DNA of 64,000 nt from Psychroserpens sp. NJDZ02 (GTDB taxonomy: Bacteria; Bacteroidota; Bacteroidia; Flavobacteriales; Flavobacteriaceae). Every line of letters starts with the position of its first letter. Position 1 is the first letter of the stretch. The stretch lies in NCBI RefSeq assembly GCF_004843725.1, contig NZ_CP039451.1:3044001-3108000 (forward strand), written 5' to 3'. The notes under the pieces were generated by a model. That model saw only the letters and a program-made list of their open reading frames with translations. It made no database searches and had not been told where the DNA came from. Below are positions 29,370 through 62,304 of this stretch, one piece after another. The position numbers and the translations under genes are program-made.

Positions 29370-30383
29370 ATGGCCACTAACAGGCACGCACAAATTCGTT
29401 ATACCATTCTAGATAAGTGTTTTAGTAATTTTAATAGGAATTTTACCTACGATGATTTACTAGAAGAAATAAATCAAGTTTTACAAGAAATTGGATCAGA
29501 GGGCATACAATTAAGACAGTTACAATATGATATAGCCCACATGAAATCTGATGTGGGCTACGCTATTGAGTTAAATGAAGATCTTAAGGAAGGAAAAAAA
29601 AGAGTTTTTAGATATAACGACAAAAACTTTTCTTTAGCTAATAATCCGCTTAACGTTGAAGATACAGAGCAATTGGAATCTACACTAGCTATATTATCAC
29701 GTTACAAAAATAGAGAAGAATTTAATTGGTTAGAAGAACTTATTCCAAGAATGGAGCAAGCTTTTGATTTAGTTTCAAATGGAGACGATAGCGCTATAAG
29801 TTATCAAGGAAATCAAGATTTAAAAGGATTACATCATTTAGGTGTACTATTCAATCTAATTATTAAAAGAAAAGTTACAGAAATAGAATATGAGACTTTT
29901 GCTAATAAAATAGAATTAGCAATTGTATATCCATACCATTTGAAACAATATAACAATAGGTGGTTTTTGTTTTGTTTTAACCCAACCTACAATTCAATTT
30001 CTAATTATCCTTTGGATAGAATTACCCAATTACGGGAAACCGTAAAAACATTTGCTGGATCTTCTATAAATTGGCTAGATTATTTTGAGGATATTATAGG
30101 AGTTACCAAACCGATGGATGTAGTATTAGAAAAAATAAAATTGAAGTTTTCTGAAAATAGAATTAATTATGTTTTAACTAAGCCATTACATGGAACGCAA
30201 AAAATAGATAAGGAAGATAAATCAAATTGCTTAGTTCTAATTGAAGTAATTCCAAATCGAGAGTTGTATCAGCAGTTATTAGCGTTTGGTGAGGATGTTG
30301 AAGTAATATCGCCCAAAAGAATAAGGCAGGAAATGATAAATAAAATAAAATTGATGAGCAATCAATATAACCATGCAGAATAG
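29370..30383 (+). CDS. WYL-domain transcriptional regulator (BrxR/CapW-like)
   Basis: The protein has 337 residues. An N-terminal winged-helix region (ILDKCFSNFNRNFTYDDLLE ... LRQLQYDIAHM) precedes a WYL domain around residues 160-240 (VYPYHLKQYNNRWFLFCFN ... YPLDRITQL) and a C-terminal WCX-like part. WYL regulators often stand at the edge of phage-defence loci and control them, probably by binding nucleic-acid or nucleotide ligands. It is the first gene of the island. Its stop codon lies inside the first of five identical operator-promoter sites (30373-30407), so it is the best candidate for the factor that reads these sites. Whether it activates or represses is not known. Confidence 0.85.
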   Translation: MATNRHAQIRYTILDKCFSNFNRNFTYDDLLEEINQVLQEIGSEGIQLRQLQYDIAHMKSDVGYAIELNEDLKEGKKRVFRYNDKNFSLANNPLNVEDTEQLESTLAILSRYKNREEFNWLEELIPRMEQAFDLVSNGDDSAISYQGNQDLKGLHHLGVLFNLIIKRKVTEIEYETFANKIELAIVYPYHLKQYNNRWFLFCFNPTYNSISNYPLDRITQLRETVKTFAGSSINWLDYFEDIIGVTKPMDVVLEKIKLKFSENRINYVLTKPLHGTQKIDKEDKSNCLVLIEVIPNRELYQQLLAFGEDVEVISPKRIRQEMINKIKLMSNQYNHAE

Positions 30384-30407
30384 GTGCATGTTTCGTTAAT
30401 ACGTTTG
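30373..30407 (+). promoter_or_regulatory. Island box 1: ATGCA-N7-TGCAT-N10-TACGTTTG
   Basis: Inverted repeat at 30373-30389 (spacer GAATAGG), 10 bp, then TACGTTTG at 30400-30407, 36 bp before the methylase-kinase start codon. It overlaps the end of the WYL gene. It matches the four other island boxes in spacing exactly. Confidence 0.85.
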
Positions 30408-30442
30408 TAAAATAATTGAAATGCTTAATTAAATTTTAGTCA

Positions 30443-32998
30443 ATGAAAAAATTAGAGAGTACACTTTGGAAGGTTTTAAATGAAGTTAGAGGGCATAAAA
30501 CCATCGGCGAATTAAAAGGAATTGTAATTAGTTTAATTTTCTTAAAATATGCTAGCGATCAATCTTTAGCTAACCCATTTACTAATGTTTCTGTTCCTAA
30601 AAAATCTCAATATTCCTTTTTGATAGTGAATCTAAATAATTCAGGTTTATTAAATCATGTATGGGATGCTTTTTGTGAAATTGAAAACGAAAATATTCAG
30701 TTAAGGAATACCCTAACTTCGTTAGATTTTCAGTTTTTTTTTAAAAATAGAGAAGATTTAGAGTTACTTAGAATTTTAATTATTAAAATTTTAGAGTTTG
30801 ATTTCTTAGAAATAAATATAAGTTTCTCTAATTTTATAGGGCAATTACTTTCAAAGTTTGCTTTTTATGAAGGAAAAAAAGGTGGGGATATAAATACCCC
30901 AGATTCTGTTTCGCAATTAATGATTGAATTATTAAATCCTGAAAAAGGGAAAGTTCTAGATTCAACTTGTGGTGTAGGTGGTTTCTTTCAAAATATTAAA
31001 GATCAATATCCAAATAATAAGTTTCAATTTTACGGACAAGAATATAATGGATCAACATTGGTATTCGCTAAATTAAGGTTTGCTTTTAATCAAAAAAACA
31101 TTATTGAATTTGGAGAAAGAAAAAGTACGCTAAGTGATGATCAATTTCCAGAATTGAAAGCAGATTATGTAATCATGCATCCACCATTTAGTGTAAGAGC
31201 ATTAACAAATGAAATTTTTGAAGGTGATCCTAGGTTTGAGTTTGGTTTACCACCAAAAAGTAATGCAAATATGGCATGGATTCAGCATGCGATTTATCAC
31301 TTAGCTAAAAATGGCAAAGCTGCCATACTTTTAAATAATAGTACATTATCTGTAGGTGGTAAAGAAGCTGAAATACGTAAAAATATAATCGAGGCTGATT
31401 TAATTGAGTCAATTATTGCTTTGCCATCTGGAATGCTATCAAACACTAGTATTCCATGTGTTATTTGGATTTTAAATAAAAATAAAACTCGAAAAGGTAA
31501 AACTCTCTTTATGGATTTATCCAATTTTGGACATAAAGAAAAACTCAATTTTCAAAAAGTTTTTGACGATAAAAGTATTAAACAAATCACTTCTATCTTT
31601 AAAAAGATTCAAAATGACTTTTTATTATATACCGGTCATACAGGATTTTTTAGATTAGTAGATTCTGAGGAAATTATTAAAAATAATTACTTGCTTACAC
31701 CAATTAGATATCTTGGTTTTGAGGGTAGAATTAAAGAGGATCTAAATGATGCTGTCAGTTTGGGATCTGTACTAGAGCATGTTAAGCCTAAAAATATAGA
31801 TAAAACTCTAGAATATAAAAAAATTAGTATAAAGGATTTATCATCTATTTCTACTAACTATTTAATAAACGTTGATACCTTAACCAAAGGAGAACTAAAG
31901 TCAAATTATAGAGAACTGCCTAACAATGTGTTGATGATACCAAGATTAGGTGATAAACTTAAGTTTTCTTATTATGGTGAAGGTGTATCTGATATCGCTT
32001 TTTCTGCTAATTCAATTTTCACGTTTAGGGTTGATGCGGATAAAGTGAGTTTAGATTATTTAATAGGAGAATTGTTTAAGCCCTATTTTCATATTCAATT
32101 TTCCGTTTTTAAATTTGGAGCTGGCATACAGTTAATAAGATTAAAAGATTTATTAAATATTAAAATTTTAATACCCTCTTTAGAAGAACAAAAAAGAGTT
32201 GTTGAGGAGTCACGAGAAAGGCAGTTTCAATCTGCTGCAAAAGATTTAGGTTTCGAAAAAGAGATAGCAAAACTTAAGATGGCTCAAATGAAAGATTTGG
32301 GTTCTAAAAAGCATAATATTATGCAGCATCTTAATAATGTAAAAGCATCAGCAGATGTGTTAACCAAAATGATTGAGCTTAACAATGGCGTTTTAAAGTC
32401 TGATGAAATTATAGACCCTAGAAGAGGCATAACTGTAGAAAAACGTTTTCTACGGTTACAAGAAAGTTTAGGCAAAGTAATCTACTATGTAGATAATATC
32501 ACCAATGAATTAAAATATGACAAAGCTGAAATAATAAATTCAGTGAAGTTTATCAGGGAATGTAAGGAAAGAGGATTACAAAACGAATTGTTTTCTATTG
32601 AAGTTGTATACGAAAAAGCCACTTTAGAAGGAAGAGAGCCACTCATTAACATTTCTAAAAATGATTTTGAAGAAATGTATAATAATATTCTAGAGAATTC
32701 TATTAATCATGGGTTTGTAGATGAAAATAAAAAATACATTTTTAGAATATCCATCGCTTTTATCGATGACTTTTTGGAAATAAATTTCGAGAATAATGGA
32801 AAACCTTTTCCTAAAGGAATTGCCCAAAAATTCGATGTAAAAGGTGAAAAAGCCGGGGCAACAGCTGGCACGGGTATAGGACTTTGGAAAGTGTCAGAAA
32901 TTGTAAAACACTTTGGAGTTAAAATGTCTGTATTTGATGAACCAACAACAGATTTTCCTGTGGGCTTTAATTTTAAATTTAACCTTGAAACACTTTAA
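30443..32998 (+). CDS. Fusion: HsdM-like methylase / specificity-like domain / histidine kinase
   Basis: The protein has 851 residues and three parts. Residues 1-400 resemble type I N6-adenine methylase: KLESTLWKVLNEVRG, then motif I as LDSTCGVGGFF (Asp172) and motif IV as MHPPF (His246), where active enzymes have NPPF; the change suggests loss of catalysis. Residues about 435-590 resemble a target-recognition domain of HsdS (LGSVLEHVK ... LLNIKILIPSLEEQKRVVEE). Residues about 600-851 form a histidine kinase: phosphoacceptor-like KKHNIMQHL (His624), N-box NNILENSINHGF, G1-like NFENNGKPF and G2 GTGIGLWKVSEIVKHFG. It is followed 3 bp later by a receiver gene. I infer a DNA-binding sensor kinase that uses a dead methylase as its detector. 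Confidence 0.8.
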   Translation: MKKLESTLWKVLNEVRGHKTIGELKGIVISLIFLKYASDQSLANPFTNVSVPKKSQYSFLIVNLNNSGLLNHVWDAFCEIENENIQLRNTLTSLDFQFFFKNREDLELLRILIIKILEFDFLEINISFSNFIGQLLSKFAFYEGKKGGDINTPDSVSQLMIELLNPEKGKVLDSTCGVGGFFQNIKDQYPNNKFQFYGQEYNGSTLVFAKLRFAFNQKNIIEFGERKSTLSDDQFPELKADYVIMHPPFSVRALTNEIFEGDPRFEFGLPPKSNANMAWIQHAIYHLAKNGKAAILLNNSTLSVGGKEAEIRKNIIEADLIESIIALPSGMLSNTSIPCVIWILNKNKTRKGKTLFMDLSNFGHKEKLNFQKVFDDKSIKQITSIFKKIQNDFLLYTGHTGFFRLVDSEEIIKNNYLLTPIRYLGFEGRIKEDLNDAVSLGSVLEHVKPKNIDKTLEYKKISIKDLSSISTNYLINVDTLTKGELKSNYRELPNNVLMIPRLGDKLKFSYYGEGVSDIAFSANSIFTFRVDADKVSLDYLIGELFKPYFHIQFSVFKFGAGIQLIRLKDLLNIKILIPSLEEQKRVVEESRERQFQSAAKDLGFEKEIAKLKMAQMKDLGSKKHNIMQHLNNVKASADVLTKMIELNNGVLKSDEIIDPRRGITVEKRFLRLQESLGKVIYYVDNITNELKYDKAEIINSVKFIRECKERGLQNELFSIEVVYEKATLEGREPLINISKNDFEEMYNNILENSINHGFVDENKKYIFRISIAFIDDFLEINFENNGKPFPKGIAQKFDVKGEKAGATAGTGIGLWKVSEIVKHFGVKMSVFDEPTTDFPVGFNFKFNLETL

Positions 32999-33001
32999 AA
33001 T

Positions 33002-34168
33002 ATGAATAGATATCAAGTATTATGGATTGATGATGATGCTGAAAAGCAGGACGGTTTTTTAGAGTCTGCTTTTTTAGAGGGTTTAGATATCAACTACTAC
33101 AAAACGTCTAAACAGGGTATGGAAGAATTAGTATCTAAAATAGAACAGTATGACGCTGTTATTTTAGACGCTATGGTGTATAACGAGTCTGAAGATGAAA
33201 AAGCAGCATTAACTGGGCTATTTAATTCAATCAAAAAAATTAACAGCTTATCTAACAAAAAGAAAATACCTTATTTTATTTACTCTGGTTATATTGATCA
33301 GGATGAGCATGCTAGCGCACGAGAAATGTTAGCTGATGAAACTATCTTTATTAAAGGCAAAGATAATGACGTATTATTTCAGGCAATTAAAAAAGAAGCT
33401 GATGAACAGGTAGACACTCAAATTAGACATAAATACCAACGTGCTTTTGAAGTATGTACAGAAAAATATATTGGTGAAAATGCAGGGAAGGATTTATTGA
33501 ATTTGTTGTTAAACCTTGAAAATTCAAATACTGAAAATCAATTTAATACATTAAGAAAAATCGTTGAAGATATTTTTATTGCTTGTAATAAGTTTCAGTT
33601 ATTACCAAATGAGTTTATTACACCTTCAGTCGCAATTAATGAAACCAGTAAATTCTTATCAGGTAAAAACCATAAAGGAGAGTTATTCACAGAAAAAGGG
33701 TATAAACACCTAGAAGAAACACATATTCCTAGTCAAGTTTCAATAATGCTTTGGAATATTTTAACAATTACCCAAGATGGATCTCACAGATCTACTATAG
33801 ACCAACATGTAAAAACGTTGAACTCATCCTATTTAATACAAAGTGTTTTGTATCAGTTATTAGATGTTGTAGTTTGGTTTAAAATTCATGTGGATAGTAA
33901 TCCAAAAACAGAGAATTGGACTAAAATTGAAAAACCTAAACAAGAATCAGAAAGCAATATAAAAAAGGGAATAGTCATAAATTTTAATGTTTATAAAGGT
34001 TTCGCATTTTTACAACCAGTAGATAGAACAGATAATATTTTTATCCCGCCACATCTTATAACAAATCATAGCTTAAAAGAACAAGATGTTATTATTGGTG
34101 AAATTGAAGAATACACAGACAACAGAACAAACGAACTAAAAAAACGAGTTAAAAAACTCATCAAATAA
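33002..34168 (+). CDS. Response-regulator-like receiver with C-terminal cold-shock-like domain
   Basis: The protein has 388 residues. The receiver (1-130) has all key residues: the acidic cluster LWIDDD (residues 8-10), phospho-acceptor Asp56 in AVILDAMV, Ser/Thr in FIYSGY and Lys in IFIKGKD. The middle (about 135-305) is all-helical and may be a HEPN/DUF4145-like unit, without a clear RxxxxH. The last 65 residues resemble a cold-shock OB fold (GIVINFNVYKGFAFLQPVDR ... NIFIPPHLI), expected to bind single-stranded nucleic acid. It follows the methylase-kinase by 3 bp, so it is its natural partner. A similar OB tail occurs in the TPR protein at 53091. Confidence 0.8.
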   Translation: MNRYQVLWIDDDAEKQDGFLESAFLEGLDINYYKTSKQGMEELVSKIEQYDAVILDAMVYNESEDEKAALTGLFNSIKKINSLSNKKKIPYFIYSGYIDQDEHASAREMLADETIFIKGKDNDVLFQAIKKEADEQVDTQIRHKYQRAFEVCTEKYIGENAGKDLLNLLLNLENSNTENQFNTLRKIVEDIFIACNKFQLLPNEFITPSVAINETSKFLSGKNHKGELFTEKGYKHLEETHIPSQVSIMLWNILTITQDGSHRSTIDQHVKTLNSSYLIQSVLYQLLDVVVWFKIHVDSNPKTENWTKIEKPKQESESNIKKGIVINFNVYKGFAFLQPVDRTDNIFIPPHLITNHSLKEQDVIIGEIEEYTDNRTNELKKRVKKLIK

Positions 34169-34171
34169 TAT

Positions 34172-36292
34172 ATGAATCACGATCAACTAAAAAACTTAGA
34201 AGACAAACTCTGGGACTCTGCCAACGCAATGCGTGCACATGGAGGTTTAAAAGCATCAGATTATGCAGTACCCGTTTTAGGTTTAATCTTTTTAAAGTTT
34301 GCCGAAAATAAATACAGCCAACACGAAGCTAAAATCTTGGAGGAATACCAGAGAGATAAAGGCACACGTATGGAGCGCACCATACAAGAAGTGGCGCTGG
34401 CTACCTGTGGTTTTTATTTACCAGAAAATGCCAGATACGATTATTTACTAAACTTACCAGGAAACAAAAGAGCTGAAGCTTTGCGGGATGCCATGAAAGG
34501 TATTGAAAAATACCAAGATGCGAAGTTTCAAGATGTGTTGCCAACCGAAGCTTATTTTGATATTGAAAAAAAGAAAGACGATATTTTACCAGAACTTTTA
34601 AAATCATTTTCAGACATACCAAAAGAAGCATCTGGAGATATATTTGGTAAAATTTATGAGTACTTCTTAGGTAAATTCGCAATGAGCGAAGGACAAAAAG
34701 GAGGCGAGTTCTTTACACCAACTTCTGTAGTTCGTTTTATTGTTGAGGTGATTGAACCTTACAAAGGTAAAATTTACGATCCTGCCTGTGGTTCTGGTGG
34801 TATGTTTGTACAATCTGCCGATTTTATTGCACACGAAGGTCACGACTTAAACGATATTTATGTGTACGGACAAGAATACATGGGCGAAACCGTGCGCTTG
34901 GCAAAAATGAACTTACTCGTACACAATTTACGTGGCGAAATTACCGAAACCAATTCGTATGATAGCGATCCTTATGATGGACTTGGAAAGTTCGATTTTG
35001 TTATGGCGAATCCGCCATTTAATGTAAAATCTGTAAAAGAAAGTACCGTAAAATTAGACGAACGTTTTTACAAATACGGATTACCAAAAAACAAGGGTAA
35101 AAAAGATGATAAAATATCTGATGCCAATTATTTATGGATTTCACTCTTTGCAACCTCTTTAAATAAAAACGGACGTGCAGGTTTTGTAATGCCTAATTCT
35201 GCTTCTGATGCTCGAAACTCAGAATACGACATTCGTAAAAACATTGTAGATTCTGGTATTGTAGATTGCATGGTAAGTATGCCAACCAATATGTTTTTAA
35301 CGGTGACTTTACCTGCAACCTTATGGTTTTTCGATAAGCAAAAAGTAAACACAGACCGTAAAGACAACATCTTATTTTTAGATGCGCGTAATGTGTATAA
35401 CCAAATAGACAGAGCGCATAGAGAATGGACTACAGAAAACCAACAAAATTTAGCAGCTATTGTACGTTTGTATCGTGGTGAAACCAAGCGTTATTTAGAA
35501 TTAATTGATAGCTACATAAAACAAGCGAATGAAGCTGAAAGTAGAGTTGCACCTACAAAAGAGGTTTTAGAGCTACAAATTGAAACGACTTTAAAAAGTT
35601 TAAAAGCATACATTAAAGAAACTAAAGGAGCTAAACGTACACCAACCAAAACAAAAGCATTAAAAGAATCTGATTTCTTTAATTTGGTTGAAAAGTTTAC
35701 CAAGACTACACCAGAAATAAACGCTGTTGTTTTAGATAATTTAGTACATCCTATAGAAAATACACCTTTAGAAAACGAAGCACAATTAGAAGTAGCTAAG
35801 AATTTAGATTTTAATGTAGCGCAAAACAAGTTTGATGCTACAGCTTTAAAACAAGACGCCAACCAACTTTTAGAATTGTATAAAATAGCAGATAAAAACT
35901 TAAAGTTAAGTTCTGATAAATTTTGGAGTGCCCAAAACTTGGTTAAAGTTGATAAAAACCTAGAAGAAGCATTGCAGAATTATATTGAAGCTATAGAACA
36001 AGCTGCTTATTGGAGTTCTAATATAAACTGGATGCAAACTCGTTTCCCAGAAGCCAAATATGAAGATGTCGTTGGTTTATGTAAAATGGCAGATAAAACC
36101 GAATATATTGAAGAACAGGATTATTCCTTAAATGCTGGACGCTATGTGGGAGTAGTAGTTGATGGAGACAATATTACAAAAGAAGAATTTGAGGAAACAA
36201 TGGGTGATAATATTGAAAAGCTAAAAGTGTTAGTTAAACAATCTAATTCTATTAATGATTCTATTTTTTCTAATTTATCAAACCTTATTTAA
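34172..36292 (+). CDS. hsdM: Type I restriction-modification methyltransferase HsdM
   Basis: The 706-residue protein is longer than the usual 500-530 because of a roughly 170-residue helical insertion (about 430-620). The N-terminal helical domain (LEDKLWDSANAMRA) and N6-adenine methylase core are standard: motif I DPACGSGGM (Asp203) and motif IV NPPF (Asn280). The C-terminus YSLNAGRYVGVV is typical. It methylates adenine in the target with HsdS. Spacing to neighbours is 3 and 2 bp, so it belongs to one operon. In contrast to the preceding fusion, it keeps its catalytic residues. Confidence 0.95.
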   Translation: MNHDQLKNLEDKLWDSANAMRAHGGLKASDYAVPVLGLIFLKFAENKYSQHEAKILEEYQRDKGTRMERTIQEVALATCGFYLPENARYDYLLNLPGNKRAEALRDAMKGIEKYQDAKFQDVLPTEAYFDIEKKKDDILPELLKSFSDIPKEASGDIFGKIYEYFLGKFAMSEGQKGGEFFTPTSVVRFIVEVIEPYKGKIYDPACGSGGMFVQSADFIAHEGHDLNDIYVYGQEYMGETVRLAKMNLLVHNLRGEITETNSYDSDPYDGLGKFDFVMANPPFNVKSVKESTVKLDERFYKYGLPKNKGKKDDKISDANYLWISLFATSLNKNGRAGFVMPNSASDARNSEYDIRKNIVDSGIVDCMVSMPTNMFLTVTLPATLWFFDKQKVNTDRKDNILFLDARNVYNQIDRAHREWTTENQQNLAAIVRLYRGETKRYLELIDSYIKQANEAESRVAPTKEVLELQIETTLKSLKAYIKETKGAKRTPTKTKALKESDFFNLVEKFTKTTPEINAVVLDNLVHPIENTPLENEAQLEVAKNLDFNVAQNKFDATALKQDANQLLELYKIADKNLKLSSDKFWSAQNLVKVDKNLEEALQNYIEAIEQAAYWSSNINWMQTRFPEAKYEDVVGLCKMADKTEYIEEQDYSLNAGRYVGVVVDGDNITKEEFEETMGDNIEKLKVLVKQSNSINDSIFSNLSNLI

Positions 36293-36294
36293 TC

Positions 36295-37551
36295 ATGGAA
36301 TATGAATTAGGTGATTTAATTCACAATACAATTGATTATAGGGGGAAAACTCCGAAAAGATTTGATAGTGGGATACCTGTGTTATCTGCTGCTAATGTTA
36401 AAAAAGGAAAGATAAAAATTGATTCGAAGTTTATTTCAAAAGAATATTATGATAAATGGGCAACAAGAGGTTTTATTAAACCAGGAGATATTTTAATTAC
36501 TACAGAAGCACCAGTTGGAGAAATAGCTAAAGTTCCAGGAGATCAAATTTATATGATTTCGCGTAGAGTTTTTGCTCTTCAAATAAATGAAAAGCTCGCT
36601 GACGAAACCTATGTTTATTATTTATTACTAACGGAAGGTGTTTTAAAGTATTTTGAGTCTATTTCTCATGGAGCAACTGCACCTAGAATTTATAAAGATG
36701 AAGTTTTAAAACTTAAAATTAATTTACCAGAATTACCAACCCAAAAAAAAATAGCATCAACCCTTTCCTCTTATGATGATTTAATAGAAAACAACAACCA
36801 ACGCATTACGCTTTTAGAAGACATGGCAGCCGAAATATACAAAGAGTGGTTTGTACGTTTTCGTTTTCCTAATTACCAAAACACCAAATTTTTAGACAAA
36901 GATGGTAAGGAAGTAGCGCATGGAACTAAAGGCGCTATTCCCGAGGGTTGGAATGATGGAGAAATTCTTGATTTGGTTGAACTAAAAAAAGGAAAAATTA
37001 TTACAAAATCTACTATTACAGAAGGAGATATACCTGTTGTTGCTGGTGGTTTAACTCCTGCATATTATCACAATAAAGCAAATACAAATTCTCCGACAAT
37101 AACAATAAGTTCATCTGGAGCTAATGCGGGATTTGTGAATATGTACTACGAAGATATTTGGGTTTCTGATTGCTCGTACTTAGATTCTAAAATGACTAAT
37201 TGGCTATTCTTTTTCTATTGCACTTTTAAAACAAGACAGAAAGAGGTTTTTCATTTACAAAGAGGTGCAGCGCAACCTCATGTATATTCGAAAGACATCC
37301 ATAAATTAAAAATGAAATGTCCGCCAGAAGAAATACTTAATGATTTTGAAAAGTTGATTAAGCCATTTTTTCAAGAGATAGATACTCTTATTGCTAAAAA
37401 CCAAATACTTCAAGAAACAAGAGATTTATTATTACCACGTTTAATAAGTGGTAAGTTGTCTGTGGAGAATTTGGAGGTAGAGGAAATGAATAGTTCTGCT
37501 GAGCTTAGTCGAAGTATGGCTGCGGAGCCTCAAGAAAAATATAGTAAGTAA
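36295..37551 (+). CDS. hsdS: Type I restriction-modification specificity subunit HsdS
   Basis: The 418-residue protein has two target-recognition domains (about 1-150 and 215-380), each followed by a conserved helix (LPTQKKIASTLSSYDDLIENNNQ; IDTLIAKNQILQETRDLLLPRLISGKL, abbreviated here by its ends). It sets the DNA sequence recognised by the HsdM/HsdR complex; the two halves probably read the two parts of a bipartite target. The tail after SGKLSVENLE is an odd short stretch (SSAELSRSMAAEP). It overlaps nothing but is one base from the next gene. Confidence 0.93.
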   Translation: MEYELGDLIHNTIDYRGKTPKRFDSGIPVLSAANVKKGKIKIDSKFISKEYYDKWATRGFIKPGDILITTEAPVGEIAKVPGDQIYMISRRVFALQINEKLADETYVYYLLLTEGVLKYFESISHGATAPRIYKDEVLKLKINLPELPTQKKIASTLSSYDDLIENNNQRITLLEDMAAEIYKEWFVRFRFPNYQNTKFLDKDGKEVAHGTKGAIPEGWNDGEILDLVELKKGKIITKSTITEGDIPVVAGGLTPAYYHNKANTNSPTITISSSGANAGFVNMYYEDIWVSDCSYLDSKMTNWLFFFYCTFKTRQKEVFHLQRGAAQPHVYSKDIHKLKMKCPPEEILNDFEKLIKPFFQEIDTLIAKNQILQETRDLLLPRLISGKLSVENLEVEEMNSSAELSRSMAAEPQEKYSK

Positions 37552-45727: not shown

Positions 45728-45762
45728 ATGCAGTTACACTGCATATAAGCAAAATATATTTG
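45728..45762 (+). promoter_or_regulatory. Island box 2: ATGCA-N7-TGCAT-N10-TATATTTG, retron promoter
   Basis: Inverted repeat at 45728-45744 (spacer GTTACAC), then 10 bp and TATATTTG at 45755-45762. The a1 arm of the retron RNA begins 12 bp downstream, so transcription should start just before it. Confidence 0.88.
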
Positions 45763-46056: not shown

Positions 46057-46071
46057 TAGAATTTTATAACT

Positions 46072-47241: not shown

Positions 47242-47251
47242 TTTTTTAATT

Positions 47252-49218: not shown

Positions 49219-49220
49219 AA

Positions 49221-50919: not shown

Positions 50920-50954
50920 ATGCAAACACTATGCACACCTCCACATTACATTTG
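50920..50954 (+). promoter_or_regulatory. Island box 3: ATGCA-N7-TGCAC-N10-TACATTTG
   Basis: Inverted repeat at 50920-50936 (spacer AACACTA; right half TGCAC), 10 bp, TACATTTG at 50947-50954, 24 bp before the RecD-like gene. Confidence 0.86.
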
Positions 50955-53101: not shown

Positions 53102-54674
53102 AGATATTAAAGAACTGAGAGAATCAGGGAAATTGGAAGAAGCTTTAATTATGGCTAAAAACGAATTTGATGTAGCGCCTGATAATATTTGGACAAAGAG
53201 AAATTTAGCTTGGGTATATTATTCTCTTTTAAAAAAACATCAAGGGAATCAAGATGATTTTTTGAGTGTCCTAATTAAGATAATAGAACTAAAATTACCA
53301 GAAAATGAAAACATGTTTTATGAGCAGTTATGTTGGGCAGTTGGTATGCATAATTTTAAAATATCAAAAGATGAAGAAGTAGCTATGAATAAATTCTCAG
53401 CTATTAAATCTGTTTTTTATCAGGTTAGAAGTTTAAGTTTTGTGTCCTCTAAAGGTTACAGTTTTCTTTTAAAATCGTTTCATAATGAATTTAAAGGTAT
53501 TAAGAATTCCTCAGGATTTAATACTGATAATTTTATAAATTTTTCTGAAAGTTATAGAGAATTAATATTATGGAGTGGATTTAATAGTTTCGGTGAAGAA
53601 GATTTTTTGCCAAATGAAGTTAACGGTCGAAAAATAATTTCATTTGTGGAACAAATCATAATTGCTTATTCCAAAGTTTTGTTGGAAGGAGAGCCTCTGA
53701 AAACTGATGAGCCTAATGAAAACTTGTTATATTTGAGTAAAAGAAGTATAAATGCAAGTCAGGTTGATTCTTTTTTATTCTTTTTGAATAAGATAATCAA
53801 TTTACATCCAGAGTATCAATATACACTATACTATAAATCTAAATTATTATTGGCTCTTAATAGATTAGAGGAGGCTAAAAACTCTTTAATTCCTTTTGTA
53901 AAACAGAAGAAAAATGATTTTTGGGTTTGGGAATTATTATCAGAAGCTTTTCCGGAAGATGTGGACTTACAAATAGGCTGTTTGTGTAAAGGGTTGACTT
54001 TAAATGCAAAAGAGTCTTTTTTAGTTAAAGTGCATGAGAAATTAGCTAATCTTTTAATACAGAAAGAGTTGTTTTTAGAGGCTTCTATTGAAATACTGAA
54101 TACTTGTTTAATTAGAAAGAAGAATAATTGGAAAATCACTAATGATTTGACTAATTTAATGAATCAAGGATGGTACAATAAAGAGGTAGTAAAAAATGGT
54201 AATACCGATTTTTATTTAAAACACTCCAAATTAGCAGAAGAGCTACTATATAATAATCATGAAGAGATTGTAATCGTAGTTGAGCATATAAATGATAGTA
54301 AAAAAGTAGTCAATTTTATTAAAAACAAACAGGTTTTTGGCTTTTTTAGTTACAAACATTTAAATATAAACCCTGAAGTTGGTTCTGTTTTTAAAGTAAG
54401 ATTAAACCAAATAGGTGAAGAAGGGTTTTTTAAAGTTTTGACTATTAAGTTATGTTCTCAATCCGTTTCTGAATCTGTCAGTTCTGTTTCTGGAAATTTA
54501 AGAATATTAGAAAACAAAAATTTTGGGTTTATTCAGGATGTTTTTATAACTCCTGATTTGATTGATAATAACCATTTAAAAAATGGTGATATTGTTAATG
54601 CTAAAACAATATTGTCTTTCAATAAAAAGCGAAATGAATGGGGTTGGAAAGCATTTAAGGTAGCTAAAGATTAA
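53091..54674 (+). CDS. TPR-rich protein with C-terminal OB/cold-shock-like domain
   Basis: The protein has 527 residues. TPR-like helical pairs cover about residues 8-350 (RESGKLEEALIMAKNEFDVAPDN; LNRLEEAKNSLIPFVKQK). The C-terminus has one or two OB-like folds, ending in a cold-shock-like strand set (NLRILENKNFGFIQDVFITP ... NGDIVNAKTI). Such proteins are expected to act as nucleic-acid-binding scaffolds. It overlaps the helicase gene by 11 bp. Its OB tail recalls that of the receiver protein at 33002. I know no established name for it. Confidence 0.6.
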   Translation: MPAKDIKELRESGKLEEALIMAKNEFDVAPDNIWTKRNLAWVYYSLLKKHQGNQDDFLSVLIKIIELKLPENENMFYEQLCWAVGMHNFKISKDEEVAMNKFSAIKSVFYQVRSLSFVSSKGYSFLLKSFHNEFKGIKNSSGFNTDNFINFSESYRELILWSGFNSFGEEDFLPNEVNGRKIISFVEQIIIAYSKVLLEGEPLKTDEPNENLLYLSKRSINASQVDSFLFFLNKIINLHPEYQYTLYYKSKLLLALNRLEEAKNSLIPFVKQKKNDFWVWELLSEAFPEDVDLQIGCLCKGLTLNAKESFLVKVHEKLANLLIQKELFLEASIEILNTCLIRKKNNWKITNDLTNLMNQGWYNKEVVKNGNTDFYLKHSKLAEELLYNNHEEIVIVVEHINDSKKVVNFIKNKQVFGFFSYKHLNINPEVGSVFKVRLNQIGEEGFFKVLTIKLCSQSVSESVSSVSGNLRILENKNFGFIQDVFITPDLIDNNHLKNGDIVNAKTILSFNKKRNEWGWKAFKVAKD

Positions 54675-54748: not shown

Positions 54749-54783
54749 ATGCATTACCACTGCATAGTTAGATGTTAAGTTTG
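54749..54783 (+). promoter_or_regulatory. Island box 4: ATGCA-N7-TGCAT-N10-TAAGTTTG
   Basis: Inverted repeat at 54749-54765 (spacer TTACCAC), 10 bp, TAAGTTTG at 54776-54783, 28 bp before the vWA gene. Confidence 0.87.
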
Positions 54784-54810: not shown

Positions 54811-55485
54811 ATGAAAAATTTAAATGATTTAATTATTCAAAAAGCGAGACCATTACCTGTTATAATATTGGCAGATACTAGTGGTAGTATGGCAAGTGAT
54901 AATAGAATAGGTGTTTTAAATAATGCTATTAGAGAAATGATAGACTCATTAAAAGATGAAAATACGCTAAGGGCTGAAATATATTTTTCTGTTATCACTT
55001 TTGGTGGATCTGTAAAATCTCATTTAGGCTTTACAAAAGCAAATGAAATAAATTGGACAAATCTAACAGCTGGAGGTGGCACCCCAATGGGAGGAGCATT
55101 TACTGAAACAAAAATATTTTTAGAGGACAAAAACTTAATACCAAGCAGGTCTTATGCTCCTACGTTAGTATTGCTTTCAGACGGCCAGCCTACAGATAAT
55201 TGGTCTGAAGCACTGAAACAACTGATTTCATCTCCAAGAGCTTCTAAAGCTTTAAGAATAGCAATGTCAATTGGCGCAGGACAAGATGGTACGAATGTCT
55301 TAAAACAATTCCTAGGGGATTCTGAACTAGATGTTTTTCAAGCGGTCCAAGCAAGAGATATTAAAAAATTCTTCCGTTTTGTAACCATGAGTGTTTCTCA
55401 AAGAGCGAAAAGCGTAAACCCTGATCAACCCATTAGTTTAACTTTTGATGATTCTGACGATAACCTTGATGATTTTGAATTTTAA
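54811..55485 (+). CDS. TerY-like von Willebrand factor A (vWA) domain protein
   Basis: The protein has 224 residues, nearly all vWA domain. The metal-ion-dependent adhesion site is visible: ADTSGSM (Asp22), GGTPMG (Thr) and LLSDGQPTD (Asp). TerY-type proteins are cytoplasmic adaptors in tellurium-resistance and defence loci. It is the first of a triad with PP2C and kinase, the set called TerY-P in comparative genomics. The acidic tail (DDSDDNLDDFEF) may bind a partner. It is 3 bp from the phosphatase gene. Confidence 0.9.
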   Translation: MKNLNDLIIQKARPLPVIILADTSGSMASDNRIGVLNNAIREMIDSLKDENTLRAEIYFSVITFGGSVKSHLGFTKANEINWTNLTAGGGTPMGGAFTETKIFLEDKNLIPSRSYAPTLVLLSDGQPTDNWSEALKQLISSPRASKALRIAMSIGAGQDGTNVLKQFLGDSELDVFQAVQARDIKKFFRFVTMSVSQRAKSVNPDQPISLTFDDSDDNLDDFEF

Positions 55486-55488
55486 TCG

Positions 55489-56184
55489 ATGAATTTTAAT
55501 TCCGCAATTATTAAAGGTCCTGAAAAGAAAGTACTCCAAGATGCATTTGGTATTATAAATCAAAAGCAATTTAGTCTTTTAGTGGTTGCTGATGGACTTG
55601 GTTCTGCAGAACATAGTGGTTTTGGAGCTAAAAAAGCAATAGATGCTGTTCAGAAAGCGGTATCAGAATGGCAAAAATTAGAAAAGAAAGACATTAAGGT
55701 TTTAATACAATTAGTCCAATTTTATTGGAATCTTTTAATTGGTGACTCGGATTTTGAAAAAAAAGAATGTGCTACTACTTGCCTATTTGCTTATATAGAT
55801 AAGTTAAGTAATACAATTATATTAAGCCAACTTGGAGATGGCTTAGTAATGTGTAAAACAAAAAAAGAAACTATTTTATTAAAATCTGCAGAAGAATATA
55901 ATTTCACAAAGTCTTTAGGAAGTTCAAAATCTTATAAGGATTGGAATATCAAACATACCGATTTTGATAGCGATGGTTTTAATTTATTACTGACAACGGA
56001 TGGTATTTCGGAAGATTTGGTAGAAAGTAAAGAAGATCAGTTTATGGAGGGATTGATCGAGAAAATGAAAAGTACTAAAAGAAACAAAAGAAATGGTTAT
56101 TTACATCAGTTACTAAAGAATTGGCCTACAAAGTATCATACAGACGATAAAACAATTTGCATTGCATGGGAAAAGAAAAAGTAA
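55489..56184 (+). CDS. PP2C-family protein phosphatase (TerY-P triad)
   Basis: The protein has 231 residues. PP2C motifs are visible: VVADGLGSAEHSGFGAKKA (metal aspartate, glycine), ATTCLFAYID, SQLGDGLVM, LLTTDGISEDL and DDKTI near the end. It should remove phosphate from Ser/Thr placed by the adjacent kinase. It lies between vWA and kinase genes and overlaps the kinase start by 19 bp. Confidence 0.9.
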   Translation: MNFNSAIIKGPEKKVLQDAFGIINQKQFSLLVVADGLGSAEHSGFGAKKAIDAVQKAVSEWQKLEKKDIKVLIQLVQFYWNLLIGDSDFEKKECATTCLFAYIDKLSNTIILSQLGDGLVMCKTKKETILLKSAEEYNFTKSLGSSKSYKDWNIKHTDFDSDGFNLLLTTDGISEDLVESKEDQFMEGLIEKMKSTKRNKRNGYLHQLLKNWPTKYHTDDKTICIAWEKKK

Positions 56185-57560
56185 TAATAGGTTTCAGTTC
56201 TGGAGCTAATTACATAATAGAAAAAGAAATTGGGTCAGGTGGTCAAGGAAAAGTGTTTTCGGTTAAAGGAGGGAAATATGCTTTTAAGTTAATTGGAAAA
56301 AAAACTAGCTCTAAATCCCAACGACTTAAAAGGAAAATATCCTATTTAAAAACGAGACCATTAGAAGATTTACCTATTTCATTACCCATAGAGCAAATTG
56401 AAGGGAATGGATTAGGGTATATTATGGAATTGGCAACAGATATGATTTCTTTAGAGGAGTTTATTAAACCAAACCCGGAAATAGATTTTACATTATGGTG
56501 GCAAGAAACAGGAGGCTTAAAAAAGCGAATTAGTGTTTTAGAAAAGATAGCAAAAACATTGTCAGATTTACATTCAAGAGGGTTTGTTTATGGCGATTTT
56601 TCGTTGAGTAATATTTTTGTGTCTGAAGATAAAGACTACTCTGAAATATTTTTTATTGATGCAGATAATATTACGCATGAATCTAGAGTAGGTACCGCTG
56701 TTTATACTCCTGGTTATGCAGCTCCAGAAATCATTAAAACAGATGATCATCAGCCAAAAAGTGGATATGATACCTATACGGATAATTATTCTTTTGCCAT
56801 AATAGCCTATCAATTACTGACTTTAAACCATCCGTTTATTGGGGATTATGTAAATGAAGGAGAACCGGAACTAGAGGAAAAAGCTTATTTAGGAATGATT
56901 CCTTGGGTAAATCACACTAAAGATGATATTAATGTTGCTAGCAGTGGTATTCCTACTTCTCTTACCATATCAAAGAAAATGATGGATGCATTTCAGCAAA
57001 CTTTTGAGAAAGGAATCAATCAGAAGTTTAAAAGAACAAGTGCTTTTAAATGGCAAGAAATTCTATTTGGAGCTCTGGATGCTATTATTGAGTGTAATAA
57101 ATCGTGTAAACAGAATTTCTTTTTTTCTAAAGAAATCACCTGTCCATTTTGTGAAGAGCAATTAAATTTTGTGGGGATTGCACGTATTCATCATTTAATA
57201 CGAGGTTTGAAGGATGAAATTAAAAAGAGTTTTTCAGTAGAGCTTAAAGATATTGAAAACATTGGAAGGGTATTAACTACAAAAATAATGACTCCTAACA
57301 AGTATTTAGTTTTTTATGAAAGTGACTTCCTATTAAATTCATCAAATAATGAGTTGTTTAAAATTAAGATTCAGGAAGATTCTATTTTTATAAAAGGAAT
57401 GGATTTAAAGCGTGTGTCAATAGTTTCAAATAAGAAATATAAAAAGGATGTTGATATCTCTAACGAAATAAAAGTAACACAAACAGAAGATTTTACATTG
57501 TTTTATAATGATGTGAATAAATATCAAAGAATCTTAAAACTAAAAAAATACGCTTTATGA
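56166..57560 (+). CDS. Protein kinase with C-terminal zinc ribbon (TerY-P triad)
   Basis: The protein has 464 residues from the ATG at 56166; a TTG three codons upstream was not used. The glycine loop is GSGGQG (from residue 23), Lys41 in YAFKL is the ATP lysine, the catalytic loop is VYGDFSLSNIF (Asp144, Asn149), and the metal-binding DFG is replaced by DAD (165-167), a variant known in this kinase family. A CxxxC...CPFC zinc ribbon lies near residues 315-345. The phosphatase overlaps its start and it overlaps the helicase by 4 bp, so the three enzymes are made together. Confidence 0.88.
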   Translation: MGKEKVIIGFSSGANYIIEKEIGSGGQGKVFSVKGGKYAFKLIGKKTSSKSQRLKRKISYLKTRPLEDLPISLPIEQIEGNGLGYIMELATDMISLEEFIKPNPEIDFTLWWQETGGLKKRISVLEKIAKTLSDLHSRGFVYGDFSLSNIFVSEDKDYSEIFFIDADNITHESRVGTAVYTPGYAAPEIIKTDDHQPKSGYDTYTDNYSFAIIAYQLLTLNHPFIGDYVNEGEPELEEKAYLGMIPWVNHTKDDINVASSGIPTSLTISKKMMDAFQQTFEKGINQKFKRTSAFKWQEILFGALDAIIECNKSCKQNFFFSKEITCPFCEEQLNFVGIARIHHLIRGLKDEIKKSFSVELKDIENIGRVLTTKIMTPNKYLVFYESDFLLNSSNNELFKIKIQEDSIFIKGMDLKRVSIVSNKKYKKDVDISNEIKVTQTEDFTLFYNDVNKYQRILKLKKYAL

Positions 57561-60500
57561 GAATACAGGATATATTCAAAGGCAAAAAGGAGGAGATTAA
57601 TTTAAGATTGAAACCATCTATTAAAAGTGAATCATTTACAAAAAACAATAATCTGTCTGTAAAAATTAAGTATTCGCAGAATACATATTGGCTTTTTTTA
57701 AATGAAGATCGCTTTGAAGTGGAAGGATTAACTTCAAAAGATAATAAGGAATTAGAAAGAATAGCTAGTAGCAATAGTCTTAATTTATTGATTACTTCAC
57801 AAGGAACGAAAGCGGAAATAAAATCTAAATTACTTACAGATACTATAAACTTGCCAGATGGTATCGAAATAGGGCTTACAGATATAATTATTGATGATAT
57901 CAATAAAAGACACTCAAAAAAAAGGAAAGGAAAAAAACATACAGATTGGTTAACTAATGAATTAATTATTGAAGATGGTGATGAGAAGCAAGTTCTTTTA
58001 GATAATGCTCCTAATTCTGGTGGATTTCGAATATTTGGTAAATCTATAGTTATCGACGTTAAGATTAATGAAGATAATATTTATGAGATTGTAAGAATAG
58101 TAAATTGGAAAAATAGTTTCAATCCCACTTTTTTATTGAAAGGAGAAATTGAAATAAAAGATATTTCAGAAGCTGGAAAATTGAGAGCAGATACGGAGTT
58201 AAAACTAAATAGAATTAATTCTAATCAGAGATATATCAATACTTGGGAGAAATACCAAGAAAAAGAAAAGGAAAGTAATATAAAAGAAGTTGAAAGTAGA
58301 GGCTTTTTAACAATTACTGAAATTAAAAGAGTTTCTGAAGGTAAATATAAATTGGTGTTTGATAAAAATGAAAACACCAATAATTGGTTAGAAATAGAAA
58401 CAGGTACTTATGTAGACTTAAATAGCAACCAAGAGCTTCCTAATTTTAATTCATATGAAGATAAAAATAGTGCGAAAACTATTTGTAAGTTAATATCTAA
58501 AGAGAGTAACGACCTAATGGTTACATCTGAAAATGAAATACCGCAGACTACTACTGAAATTTATTATGCTAGCTTGTCATTATTAGGAAATGTAATAATG
58601 AATTCAAGAAGAACAAGGTCTTTAGATGCAATTAGAAATAACACAACCCCAATGCCCGTACTCTCAGCGGTTTTAGAAGGTGTAGATTATAATTCGGTAA
58701 CTAGAAGAAAAATAAAACCTTTAACTTCTAAAGTTAAAAGAGAATTTGGAGAGTTTGGTCCCAATGAAATGCAAGAATTAGCTTTAGATGTTGCTTTAAA
58801 CTCACCAGACATAACAATTATACAAGGGCCTCCAGGAACAGGAAAAACAAAAGTTATAAGTGCTTTAGCTACACGTTTAACAGAGGTTTATAAAGACAAT
58901 GGTGAAGCACCAGAAATGAATATTTTACTAACGGCATTTCAGCATGACGCTGTTGAAAATATGGCTTCTCGTACAGAAGTTCTTGGTTTACCTGCTATAA
59001 AGTTTAGTAAAGCACAAAACCAGTCTGTTGATGTTATTGAAAAATGGATTAATAAACAATCAGAAAAAATTGAAGCCGTTCAAATTGAGATTGAACCTAA
59101 TGAAGCGGAATTAATTTATAATGATACAATCTCCTATTATTTAACTTATATAAAAACATTAGATACAGAAAAGGCGAAAAGTGATCTTTTAAAACTACGT
59201 AAAGAAAATATTTCCATTTTACCAGACGAATTACTTAATGATATCAGTAGCTTAACAAAAAAAGAAGTCAATACGGATGATGATCTTAAAAATAGAATAA
59301 TAGATAATATTTCTAATATTAGAACAAATAAAATAAGCTATGAAGATGATGGTGTAATAAATTTAAGAAGATATTTAAAAAACTATTCAAGATATAAAGA
59401 GGAACTGCCAGTTGTAGATATTAGTTTAATTGAGGAATTAAAAGTTGTTTTAAAAACGGAAGACATAGATGATATTGACTTTTTAATGTTAGAAGACATT
59501 AAACTAAAACTATTAGAACCTATAAAATCCATTGATATTAATAAAAAGATTAAACAGTCTAATGCTAAAATAGAAAGTGTTTTTAAAAAAATGATAGCAT
59601 TTTTATCAGATCAAATTAAATCGGATGGTTCTGTGTATTCTGTGCTTTCTGAATTTCAAAATGATTTAAATAGTAATAAAGATAGAGTTAAAGAAACGGT
59701 ACAAAATTATGTAGCATTGGCTGCAGCAACTGTTCAGGGTAGTAAAGCAAAACAACTTACAGAAGTAAAACCAGATCCATTTGATACCGTTATAGTGGAT
59801 GAAGCTGCAAGAGCAAATCCGTTAGATTTATTAATTCCTTTAACATCCGCTAAAAGACGCATAGTATTAGTTGGAGATCATAGACAATTACCTCATATAA
59901 TTGATAGTGCTATTCAAAAAGAATTAGAGGCAGATGAAAATGCGGCAGAAAAACTAAAGGAGTATTTAAAAGATAGTTTGTTTGAGCGTTTCTATAATAT
60001 TTTAAAAGAATTAAATAAAAAAGATCATATTCTAAGAGTAGTAACCTTAAATACCCAATATAGAATGCATCCTGTTATTGGTGATTTTATAAGTAGAACG
60101 TTCTATGAAAAATATGGAGATCCTAAAATTGATTCAGGAACGCCTGCAGAAAAATTGACACACACGATTGAAGAATACAACAATAAGGTAGCTGTAAGTA
60201 TTAATATACCACTTATAAAAGGGGAAGAAAAAAAGAAAAACGGTAGTACTTATAGAGATGTTGAAGCTAAAGAAACTATTCGTCGTGCAAAGGAGATTTT
60301 AGACAGTGACCCATCCATATCTGTCGGTGTTATTACTTTTTACAGTAGACAGGTTACAGAGTTGTTTATGGAAGCAGAAAAATTAGGACTAGCGGAGAAA
60401 AATGAAAGTGGAGATTATATGATAACAAAGGGATATCAAAAAACAATGAATGGTGACGAACGCTTTAGAATAGGTTCTGTAGATGCTTTTCAAGGTAAAG

Positions 60501-60754
60501 AGTTTGATGTTGTGATATTATCACTTGTTCGTTCTAATAAACTTCCTGCTAAAACAGGTAATGATATTCGAAGTAAATATGGCTTTTTAACTTCTTATAA
60601 CAGATTGAATGTTGCTATGAGTAGAGCTAAAAAACTAATTATTGCGGTTGGAGACGAAGACATGTTTAAAACAAAAGAAGCAGAGGAACATATTTTTGGA
60701 CTTAGTGCATTTTATAACGAATTAATAAACTCAGATTATGGCGTTAGTATTTGA
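57557..60754 (+). CDS. SF1B (UPF1/Dna2-like) helicase
   Basis: The protein has 1,065 residues. The N-terminal 400 have no clear domain but a basic patch (KRKGKKH). The motor core begins at Walker A GPPGTGKT (Gly424 on), with DEAARANPLDLL (Asp748), GDHRQLPH, LNTQYRMHP, DAFQGKEFDVVILSLVR and NRLNVAMSRAKK: the UPF1/Dna2 type of 5'-3' helicase. A 300-residue helical insertion lies between the first and second Walker motifs. It overlaps the kinase by 4 bp and the Abi_C-like gene by 17 bp. It is likely the DNA- or RNA-processing engine of the TerY-P set. Confidence 0.92.
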   Translation: MRIQDIFKGKKEEINLRLKPSIKSESFTKNNNLSVKIKYSQNTYWLFLNEDRFEVEGLTSKDNKELERIASSNSLNLLITSQGTKAEIKSKLLTDTINLPDGIEIGLTDIIIDDINKRHSKKRKGKKHTDWLTNELIIEDGDEKQVLLDNAPNSGGFRIFGKSIVIDVKINEDNIYEIVRIVNWKNSFNPTFLLKGEIEIKDISEAGKLRADTELKLNRINSNQRYINTWEKYQEKEKESNIKEVESRGFLTITEIKRVSEGKYKLVFDKNENTNNWLEIETGTYVDLNSNQELPNFNSYEDKNSAKTICKLISKESNDLMVTSENEIPQTTTEIYYASLSLLGNVIMNSRRTRSLDAIRNNTTPMPVLSAVLEGVDYNSVTRRKIKPLTSKVKREFGEFGPNEMQELALDVALNSPDITIIQGPPGTGKTKVISALATRLTEVYKDNGEAPEMNILLTAFQHDAVENMASRTEVLGLPAIKFSKAQNQSVDVIEKWINKQSEKIEAVQIEIEPNEAELIYNDTISYYLTYIKTLDTEKAKSDLLKLRKENISILPDELLNDISSLTKKEVNTDDDLKNRIIDNISNIRTNKISYEDDGVINLRRYLKNYSRYKEELPVVDISLIEELKVVLKTEDIDDIDFLMLEDIKLKLLEPIKSIDINKKIKQSNAKIESVFKKMIAFLSDQIKSDGSVYSVLSEFQNDLNSNKDRVKETVQNYVALAAATVQGSKAKQLTEVKPDPFDTVIVDEAARANPLDLLIPLTSAKRRIVLVGDHRQLPHIIDSAIQKELEADENAAEKLKEYLKDSLFERFYNILKELNKKDHILRVVTLNTQYRMHPVIGDFISRTFYEKYGDPKIDSGTPAEKLTHTIEEYNNKVAVSINIPLIKGEEKKKNGSTYRDVEAKETIRRAKEILDSDPSISVGVITFYSRQVTELFMEAEKLGLAEKNESGDYMITKGYQKTMNGDERFRIGSVDAFQGKEFDVVILSLVRSNKLPAKTGNDIRSKYGFLTSYNRLNVAMSRAKKLIIAVGDEDMFKTKEAEEHIFGLSAFYNELINSDYGVSI

Positions 60755-62267
60755 TAAAAAAAACATAGAAGTAAAATTTTTATCAGAAAAACCAATTGAT
60801 GAAAATGTAAAAAAAGAATTAATAGTGTATCCCGTACTAGCACATAAAATTTATGCTCCAGTAATAGATGATTTAAACTTAAATATATTTCAAAAACATA
60901 TTTTATCCATTTTAAATAAAGGGAATTTTTCTGTAGACGAGATTGCTAAATGGTTAAGCCTAGATCTTGACTTAGTGAAAACAATACTTGCCGAATTAGC
61001 TAATAAAAGTCTTTTAGATATCAATTCAATGTCTATTACTAATAAAGGTAAAGAATTAATAGAAGGATCTTTTTCTTGGTTTAATAATATAGATAGTTTA
61101 AAGAAAGATATTCGGTATATTTTTCAAGATGTTTTTACACAAGAATTATTTCCTATTATTTTACCTTTTGATAATTTCCAGGTTAACATTAAGCTCAGTA
61201 GAGAGCAATTAACATATAAAACAAAAGGAAAAAAAGATAGTTTTTTCTATGAATTAATTGCTCCTAAAGACCTGAATTTAAATAATATTAGAAAGCCAGA
61301 AACTCAAGAGATTTTAGATACTATAAAAAAACAAGCAGATAAATACATTCCTAATTCTAAAAATGATTTAAAAGAAGTTGCTAATGCCGTAAACTATCTA
61401 GATGAAGAACCAGATTTGTTTTATTGTGCCATGTGGATTTCTTCTGAACAGAATAATAAGCAAGAAGAAAATATAGAAATCTCTGACCCTTTTAATATAT
61501 ATGATGATGCATATTGGTTACGAAACACTATTTTAAAAGCTCAGAGCCAAAATGAAACATTAAAAGAGGTTATTCATAGTTTAGTATACAATATCGAGGA
61601 GGAAGAAAAAATACAGGCCTCAGAATTTATGATTGGTTTTGATAAAGAGATAGAAAACGAACTTAACCAGATATTTGACTTCACTTTAAAATTGGAATAC
61701 CCATTGCTTTACTCAGCAATTAAAGAGTATTATTTTGATGTAAAATTTTATAAAGTACACAAAGACACTTCTCATTTAAAAAATGCTTTCAGAAAAAGTC
61801 AGATTGTTGTGGAAACTCTTTTTAAGCTAATCTTTGAAAATTATAAGGAGGACTATGGAGATGTGATTAGCAGTCAAACATATAATGGAGGACGTTTTCA
61901 TGCTTTCAAGGAAGAAATTAAAACAAAGATTAATACAATCAATCCAAATAGCTTAATCCCTAACTGGTATCATAGGGAATTTAAAGGTGTTGAAAGTGCT
62001 TTGAAAAATCCAGATCGCGCTTCGTTAAGAGCTTTGTTTATTGCAGGTGTTATGGCATCTGTTTATAATAGCAATAATCCAATTTATAAGATACTTAAAG
62101 AAAAAAATAATTTTTCTGTTTGTGTAGAAAATATAGCAGAAAGTAGAAATAAAGTAGGACATAAGTATACCGAAGTAGCAGATAATGAAATAGACAAGTA
62201 TTATAAAGATGCAATAGCAATGCAAAAAGATATAGAAGAAATTATAGAAATATTCTTAAAAAACTAA
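60738..62267 (+). CDS. Abortive-infection C-terminal (Abi_C-like/HEPN) protein
   Basis: The protein has 509 residues. A winged-helix-like segment occurs near residues 70-100 (DEIAKWLSLDLDLVKTILAE). The C-terminus (about 380-509) resembles Abi_C, ending with SRNKVGHKY: Arg470 to His475 gives the R-x4-H HEPN motif. This class includes RNase effectors that arrest growth in infected cells. Its start overlaps the helicase stop by 17 bp. The HEPN type is the same as that of the receiver protein at 49221, though the sequences differ. Confidence 0.7.
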   Translation: MALVFDKKNIEVKFLSEKPIDENVKKELIVYPVLAHKIYAPVIDDLNLNIFQKHILSILNKGNFSVDEIAKWLSLDLDLVKTILAELANKSLLDINSMSITNKGKELIEGSFSWFNNIDSLKKDIRYIFQDVFTQELFPIILPFDNFQVNIKLSREQLTYKTKGKKDSFFYELIAPKDLNLNNIRKPETQEILDTIKKQADKYIPNSKNDLKEVANAVNYLDEEPDLFYCAMWISSEQNNKQEENIEISDPFNIYDDAYWLRNTILKAQSQNETLKEVIHSLVYNIEEEEKIQASEFMIGFDKEIENELNQIFDFTLKLEYPLLYSAIKEYYFDVKFYKVHKDTSHLKNAFRKSQIVVETLFKLIFENYKEDYGDVISSQTYNGGRFHAFKEEIKTKINTINPNSLIPNWYHREFKGVESALKNPDRASLRALFIAGVMASVYNSNNPIYKILKEKNNFSVCVENIAESRNKVGHKYTEVADNEIDKYYKDAIAMQKDIEEIIEIFLKN

Positions 62268-62269
62268 GT

Positions 62270-62304
62270 ATGCAAACTTATTGCATAGTGAAGTTTTACA
62301 TTTG
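62270..62304 (+). promoter_or_regulatory. Island box 5: ATGCA-N7-TGCAT-N10-TACATTTG
   Basis: Inverted repeat at 62270-62286 (spacer AACTTAT), 10 bp, TACATTTG at 62297-62304, 21 bp before the ATPase start. It begins 3 bp after the preceding stop codon. Confidence 0.88.

Follow-up and report, generated by a model that had tools for sequence, protein, structure and literature searches.

What could place five unlike defence systems of one bacterium under common control? The question was raised by a defence island of Psychroserpens sp. NJDZ02, most of which lies in a 64,000-nucleotide stretch of the genome (RefSeq assembly GCF_004843725.1, contig NZ_CP039451.1, positions 3,044,001 to 3,108,000 of the forward strand) that is referred to here as the window. 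Five units of the island, among them a type I restriction-modification (RM) operon and a retron, were each preceded by a 35-bp box, and a gene encoding a WYL-domain protein was located next to the first box. Each box consisted of a 17-bp inverted repeat (RTGCA-N7-TGCAY, the operator) and, always 10 bp further downstream, a Bacteroidota-type -7 element. In our view it is reasonably likely that the five boxes are conserved promoter-like signals and that the adjacent protein, predicted to be DriD-like, switches on the island regulon. DriD from Caulobacter crescentus is a homodimeric WYL activator triggered by single-stranded DNA (ssDNA) (PMC12340889).

An earlier note on this DNA, made from the sequence alone, had claimed the five boxes, and all of them were found to be exact and on the forward strand (Table 1); box 3 ends in TGCAC, which the Y of the pattern permits. 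Its description of invariant half-sites and distances with variable spacer bases was borne out by the five sequences, in which the bases of the 10-bp gap varied as well. A scan of the 4.32-Mb genome with ATGCA-N7-TGCAY-N10-TAnnTTTG returned five exact matches, every one in the island, in agreement with the claim that the housekeeping part carried no such box, and the reversed control pattern had no exact match. When up to two mismatches were allowed, seven further matches were found outside the island versus four for the reversed control. The operator without the promoter part occurred at 13 places in the genome, five of them in the island. Thus, it was the operator, the 10-bp gap and the -7 element together that distinguished the island.

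The genes from 30443 to 66612 shared one direction. According to a survey based on open reading frames (ORFs), genes between 30383 and 66612 overlapped or were 0-10 bp apart except for five larger gaps, each with one box; the gap that follows the WYL gene is counted among the five. The next gap, 101 bp after 66612, had none. Box 1 overlapped the stop codon of the WYL gene, and the distances from TTTG to ATG were 35, 309, 23, 27 and 20 bp for boxes 1 to 5. Additionally, a second TGCA-N7-TGCA was present at 62210-62224, within the gene preceding box 5 and 60 bp upstream of that box; there was no -7 element at 10 bp from it.

Beyond this genome, loci were chosen by searching for relatives of the WYL protein, not for boxes, and the neighbourhood was examined afterwards. 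A WYL match was encoded in 50 of 149 related genomes. Among the loci that were read, the site was located at the WYL stop codon, as in the window, in L010, L011, L013, L014, L016, L017 and L025, and before the WYL gene but facing away from it in L012 and L015; no full box was found in the 1.5-kb flanks of more distant WYL paralogues. From a scan of GTDB contigs we took the best 80 of 520 confirmed stretches, with WYL identities of 40-69%. These loci were mostly labelled Bacteroidota, and five metagenome-assembled genomes (MAGs) labelled otherwise (L073 Chlorobiota, L078 archaeon, L094 Ignavibacterium, L097 Bacillota and L103 Atribacteria) may represent misbinned contigs. A site with no more than one mismatch in the eight core bases was present in at least 74 of the 80 loci, a lower bound since identical 35-mers were counted once, and the operator was exact in 70. 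In 37 loci a site directly followed the WYL gene, in 48 it lay upstream of that gene in divergent orientation, and in 17 it preceded the WYL gene itself, with overlapping classes because one locus may count more than once. At least two distinct operators were present in 46 of the 74 loci and at least three in 12.

In these loci, a -7 element (five or more of the six TAnnTTTG bases matching) lay precisely 10 bp from 99 of 112 distinct exact operators, and every other gap from 0 to 19 bp was represented by 0-9 of the 112. The exact full pattern had 49 distinct matches in 39 loci; no match remained in the 80 loci when TGCA was exchanged for any of 15 other 4-bp palindromes or the spacer was set to 3-6 or 8-12 bp. 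The -7 element was not wholly within an ORF of at least 150 amino acids (aa) in 101 of 108 boxes, and such ORFs made up 77% of the bases. Moreover, -7 elements at 10 bp flanked a single operator on both sides in nine loci (L087, L101, L102, L105, L112, L120, L131, L137 and L138), so that two divergent promoters could share one repeat.

The locus L068, from a Bacteroidia MAG, had four sites: one behind the WYL gene (with one operator mismatch), one before the successor of two small genes, a retron reverse transcriptase of 60% identity with a 279-nt leader, one before a helicase pair that matched the island pair in Pfam kinds and had its second half split into two ORFs, and one before a DUF3127 gene. 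Sites in L070 and L130 preceded an AAA_15 ATPase and HsdM, and the first scanned gene behind a box was BrxA. Among 123 non-WYL first ORFs, 64 passed filters for an exact operator, a length of at least 80 aa and a start no more than 200 nt away, which excluded retrons with their long leaders; these 64 first genes included 20 matches to N6-methylases, eight to DUF2130, five to HIRAN and four to TOTE helicases. No ORF of at least 60 aa started within 400 nt at 21 of 160 sites. Thus, the box accompanies the defence module.

The retron unit provided a separate view of where transcription may start. Retron RNAs have paired 5' and 3' arms, and the 309-bp leader of this unit looks like such an RNA, starting directly behind box 2: its fold had a z score of -4.39, and none of 100 shuffles was as good. 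The arms covaried, with CCTAAAC/GTTTAGG in the window versus CCTGCC/GGCAGG in L068. No tRNA and no Rfam family at gathering score was found in the window, so the call is based on folding and comparison. A homologous reverse transcriptase was encoded in 21 of 90 loci (the 80 WYL loci and 10 island stretches of relatives, some of which share genomes), and a box was located ahead of the leader in 19 of them (operator at least seven of eight bases, -7 element at least four of six); L098 and L123 had no box within 800 bp of the leader. L049 and L080 seemingly belong to one contig, which gives 18 of 20 distinct retron loci. Read by eye, the conserved 5' motif GTTCTTTGA began 4-7 nt behind TTTG in 18 of the 19 loci (the exception was L097), so the end of the box coincided with the beginning of the putative RNA. 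Relative to mapped starts in Flavobacterium psychrophilum, the -7 box occupied -12 to -5 (PMC9723704), and therefore the start is predicted at the same place as the start of the retron RNA. Thus, the retron RNA seems to begin where the box ends, an independent anchor for the promoter.

The 337-aa product of the WYL gene contained WYL (8.2e-10) and WCX (6.7e-13) domains in Pfam, and its AlphaFold2 model (predicted local distance difference test score 88.6) had the N-terminal helices and strands of a winged helix-turn-helix (wHTH). The closest PDB fold of the model was DriD, which was matched over its full length and ranked above the repressors BrxR and CapW. The sequence profile was also nearest to DriD. 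R197 and R217 of the WYL domain were invariant in an alignment of 84 sequences. A box was searched for upstream of the WYL gene at 29370 and none was found. This protein is predicted to bind the five boxes. The earlier assignment of the WYL gene as the likely regulator was retained, as the box accompanied WYL relatives of 40-69% identity, and so was the reading of the island as one regulon, since the exact pattern was confined to it in the genome and recurred beside WYL relatives. Because a common signal at one exact spacing was found beside these relatives, the WYL protein likely switches the island on jointly.

With the -7 element set at -12 to -5, the repeat would extend from about -39 to -23 with its centre at -31, covering the place of the -33 element. 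The dyad was 19 bp upstream of base -12, and the same distance was measured in three DriD promoters. The earlier note had seen no TTTG at the -33 position, and none of the five boxes had a TTG or TTTG at 17-23 bp ahead of its -7 element. Across 130 sites, TTG at n=19 was found in none, at n=17 in 11 and at n=18 in four; ordinary promoters nearby were mostly without TTG too. The missing -33 element was rejected as too weak a proof of activation, since it is often absent from ordinary promoters as well and TTG does occur at n=17 or 18 in some boxes. The earlier note's suggestion that the operator stands in for the -33 element and that the regulator activates agrees with three features, namely the constant gap of 10 bp, a dyad placed as in DriD promoters and a fold resembling DriD, and we infer activation from this geometry and the modelled fold. 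In the proposed mechanism, a WYL homodimer would contact both TGCA half-sites, and sigma domain 4 would fit in between from the other face of the DNA, as seen in DriD-RNA polymerase complexes. The ligand is probably ssDNA by analogy with DriD, PafBC, SiwR and the structure of CapW with ssDNA; ssDNA that arises in phage replication or from DNA damage would occupy the WYL domain and trigger binding or activation. Infection would then induce all five defence units jointly, with low levels otherwise. A wider scheme, which we regard as doubtful, has an ssDNA-sensing WYL activator running the island, retron RNA starting at a box and its ssDNA feeding the sensor as a self-amplifying alarm, with new modules joining via the 35-bp box as in L068, in which a retron and a helicase pair like those of the island have separate boxes and different neighbours. 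Within it, the feeding of the WYL sensor by the retron product is speculation.

The strongest alternative, less likely than activation but to be taken seriously, is that the same WYL protein governs the same regulon as a repressor like BrxR or CapW, sitting on the -33 region and blocking RNA polymerase in uninfected cells until released by a nucleic-acid ligand in its WYL domain. Several points favour this view: the named WYL regulators of defence were repressors (CapW acting on a -10 site, BrxR at two boxes in one island), a site at -39 to -23 would block the polymerase as well, and BrxR and the activator PafBC tied in the VIA comparison with the modelled WYL protein. However, repression would not require the site to keep a constant distance from the -7 element, and the great majority of the operators did keep one. 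Moreover, CapW sites overlapped the -10 site and BrxR repeats were downstream of the -10 box, neither being on the -35 region, and both fold and profile were nearest to an activator.

It is quite improbable that the boxes are a promoter class read by a global factor or by the product of an unlinked gene, with the WYL gene as a passenger. This idea was weighed in genomes not chosen for WYL, as the WYL loci were the starting set and their 74 of 80 cannot test it alone. The 149 relatives had 12 exact boxes, 10 of them WYL-linked; five of these were from NJDZ02, and the others were in G022 (two), G050 (one), G007 (at 3.8 kb) and G121 (at 1.3 kb from a partial match). The unlinked boxes were in G066, with WYL matches on other contigs, and in G075, which was 80% complete and had no WYL match. 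Among 296 genomes of the phylum, nine of 13 exact boxes were linked, again including the five of NJDZ02. The four linked among the eight outside NJDZ02 were within 20 bp of the WYL gene in G200, G308 and G236 and 15 kb away in G346; the remainder were in G235 (WYL match 154 kb off), G404 (weak distant match), G309 and G269 (none). The reversed control pattern had no match in the relatives and two in the phylum set. With NJDZ02 counted once, 14 of 20 exact boxes were linked, and the six without a nearby WYL relative count in favour of a passenger. On the other side stand the linked boxes of the phylum set, the absence of the exact box before housekeeping genes of NJDZ02 and the absence of a full box from the 1.5-kb flanks of the more distant WYL paralogues. 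Finally, chance or recent copying of one promoter segment, to which the confinement of all five boxes to one island might point, was refuted along with other half-sites or spacers, because spacer and gap bases differed freely around constant half-sites and distances, the reversed control had no exact match in the genome, and the box recurred in WYL loci where control patterns did not.

Table 1. Features of the island in window coordinates
Feature	Position	Strand	Description
WYL regulator gene	29370..30383	+	337 aa; wHTH, helical linker, WYL, WCX
Box 1	30373..30407	+	operator 30373-30389, -7 element 30400-30407; before type I RM operon
Unit 1	30443..45696	+	type I RM operon (Pfam, PADLOC): two N6-methylases, specificity subunit, 1617-aa NOV_C protein, HsdR, 388-aa protein
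Box 2	45728..45762	+	operator and -7 element ahead of retron RNA
Predicted retron non-coding RNA	45765..46071	+	5' arm 45771-45786, 3' arm 46044-46059
Unit 2	46072..50903	+	retron reverse transcriptase, HisKin-conflict protein, 221-aa protein, iREC/receiver protein
Box 3	50920..50954	+	exact pattern match
Unit 3	50978..54674	+	PDC-M16A helicase (TBP-TOTE) and PDC-M16B (DUF7017, S1/CSD-TOTE)
Box 4	54749..54783	+	exact pattern match
Unit 4	54811..62267	+	VWA protein, PP2C phosphatase, protein kinase, MkoA-like helicase, protein with weak MkoB match
Box 5	62270..62304	+	exact pattern match
Unit 5	62325..64000 (window end)	+	AAA_5 ATPase, PDC-M26A-like

In unit 1, the 851-aa protein (30443-32998) combined an N6-methylase with a weak specificity-subunit match and a HATPase_c domain, which was also matched by 15 of the 64 first genes behind boxes in relatives. 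The 1617-aa protein (37552-42405) inside the same operon had a C-terminal NOV_C as the sole domain found. PADLOC had no match for the retron partners (the HisKin-conflict, 221-aa and inactive-receiver/receiver proteins), so the effector type of the retron (45765-50903) may be undescribed. In unit 4, the matches of the VWA protein to TerY and of the last protein to MkoB were weak. Unit 5 continued beyond the window, where the ATPase (L039:2325-4664) was followed by a 648-aa gene (L039:4666-6612) that ended at the equivalent of 66612. Past the island lay a gene (L039:12499-16770) for a histidine kinase of 1423 aa that has as many as eight PAS stretches. At the left edge of the island, the 3' end of mnmE recurred as a direct repeat behind the intact gene (28418-28734 and 25985-26301; 317 bp, 98.4% identical), with a HipB/HipA-like ORF set between the two copies. 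The repeat looks like an attachment-site duplication from the insertion of an element; no third copy was found up to 16 kb beyond the window.

Among known systems, DriD was the nearest. Both proteins have the wHTH-WYL-WCX architecture; both sites, the island's being putative, are inverted repeats with a 7-bp spacer, and the full pattern allowed no other spacer in the loci. In both cases the site covers the -35 region at one fixed distance from the -10 element. The promoters of DriD have a poor -35, as those of the island may, and several of them are under one regulator, as is proposed for the island. However, DriD controls DNA-damage genes whereas the island boxes precede defence systems, the DriD half-sites are GAC/GTC rather than TGCA in a proteobacterial promoter, and the identity was 14-17%. 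An ssDNA trigger and activation are proposed for the island by analogy. SiwR and PafBC are also ssDNA-binding WYL activators, with the -26 region as their place of action, but they are mycobacterial and serve genotoxic-stress genes, and PafBC is a heterodimer (PMC10693628, PMC11804915).

In the island, as with BrxR and CapW, a WYL gene lies beside a defence operon whose promoter contains a palindrome. BrxR is encoded in a defence island that contains R-BOX1 and R-BOX2, but it is a repressor with 11-bp repeats and a 5-bp spacer (PMC9122601), and its two boxes in a BREX (bacteriophage exclusion) and BrxU island contrast with five promoters of unlike systems at one spacing. CapW represses a single operon of a cyclic oligonucleotide-based antiphage signalling system (PMC9122588). 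In contrast to both, the island site lies upstream of the -7 element, with 10 bp in between. RptR likewise is one regulator for a defence island with a type I RM system, but it is a small single-domain repressor, not described as a WYL protein, and it acts at a single promoter, where TAGCTA repeats lie on the -10 box (PMC12255303).

WYL regulators of phage defence described so far were repressors, and no WYL activator of a defence island was found among the matches listed in the open-access literature, nor any paper in the open-access literature searched that treats retron, WYL and multicopy single-stranded DNA together. Thus, a WYL activator of a defence island would be new. As far as these sources go, little is known about the joint switching-on of several defence systems in one island, and the named regulators were repressors of one or two promoters. 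The present comparison predicts activation instead of repression, with a gap that is necessarily 10 bp. Since one 35-bp signal marked five unlike systems and recurred with a WYL clade, the members of such a regulon could be read from DNA, and the box could be used to search for new Bacteroidota defence genes, the candidates being whatever genes follow it. If true, this would be a new way of controlling bacterial immunity.
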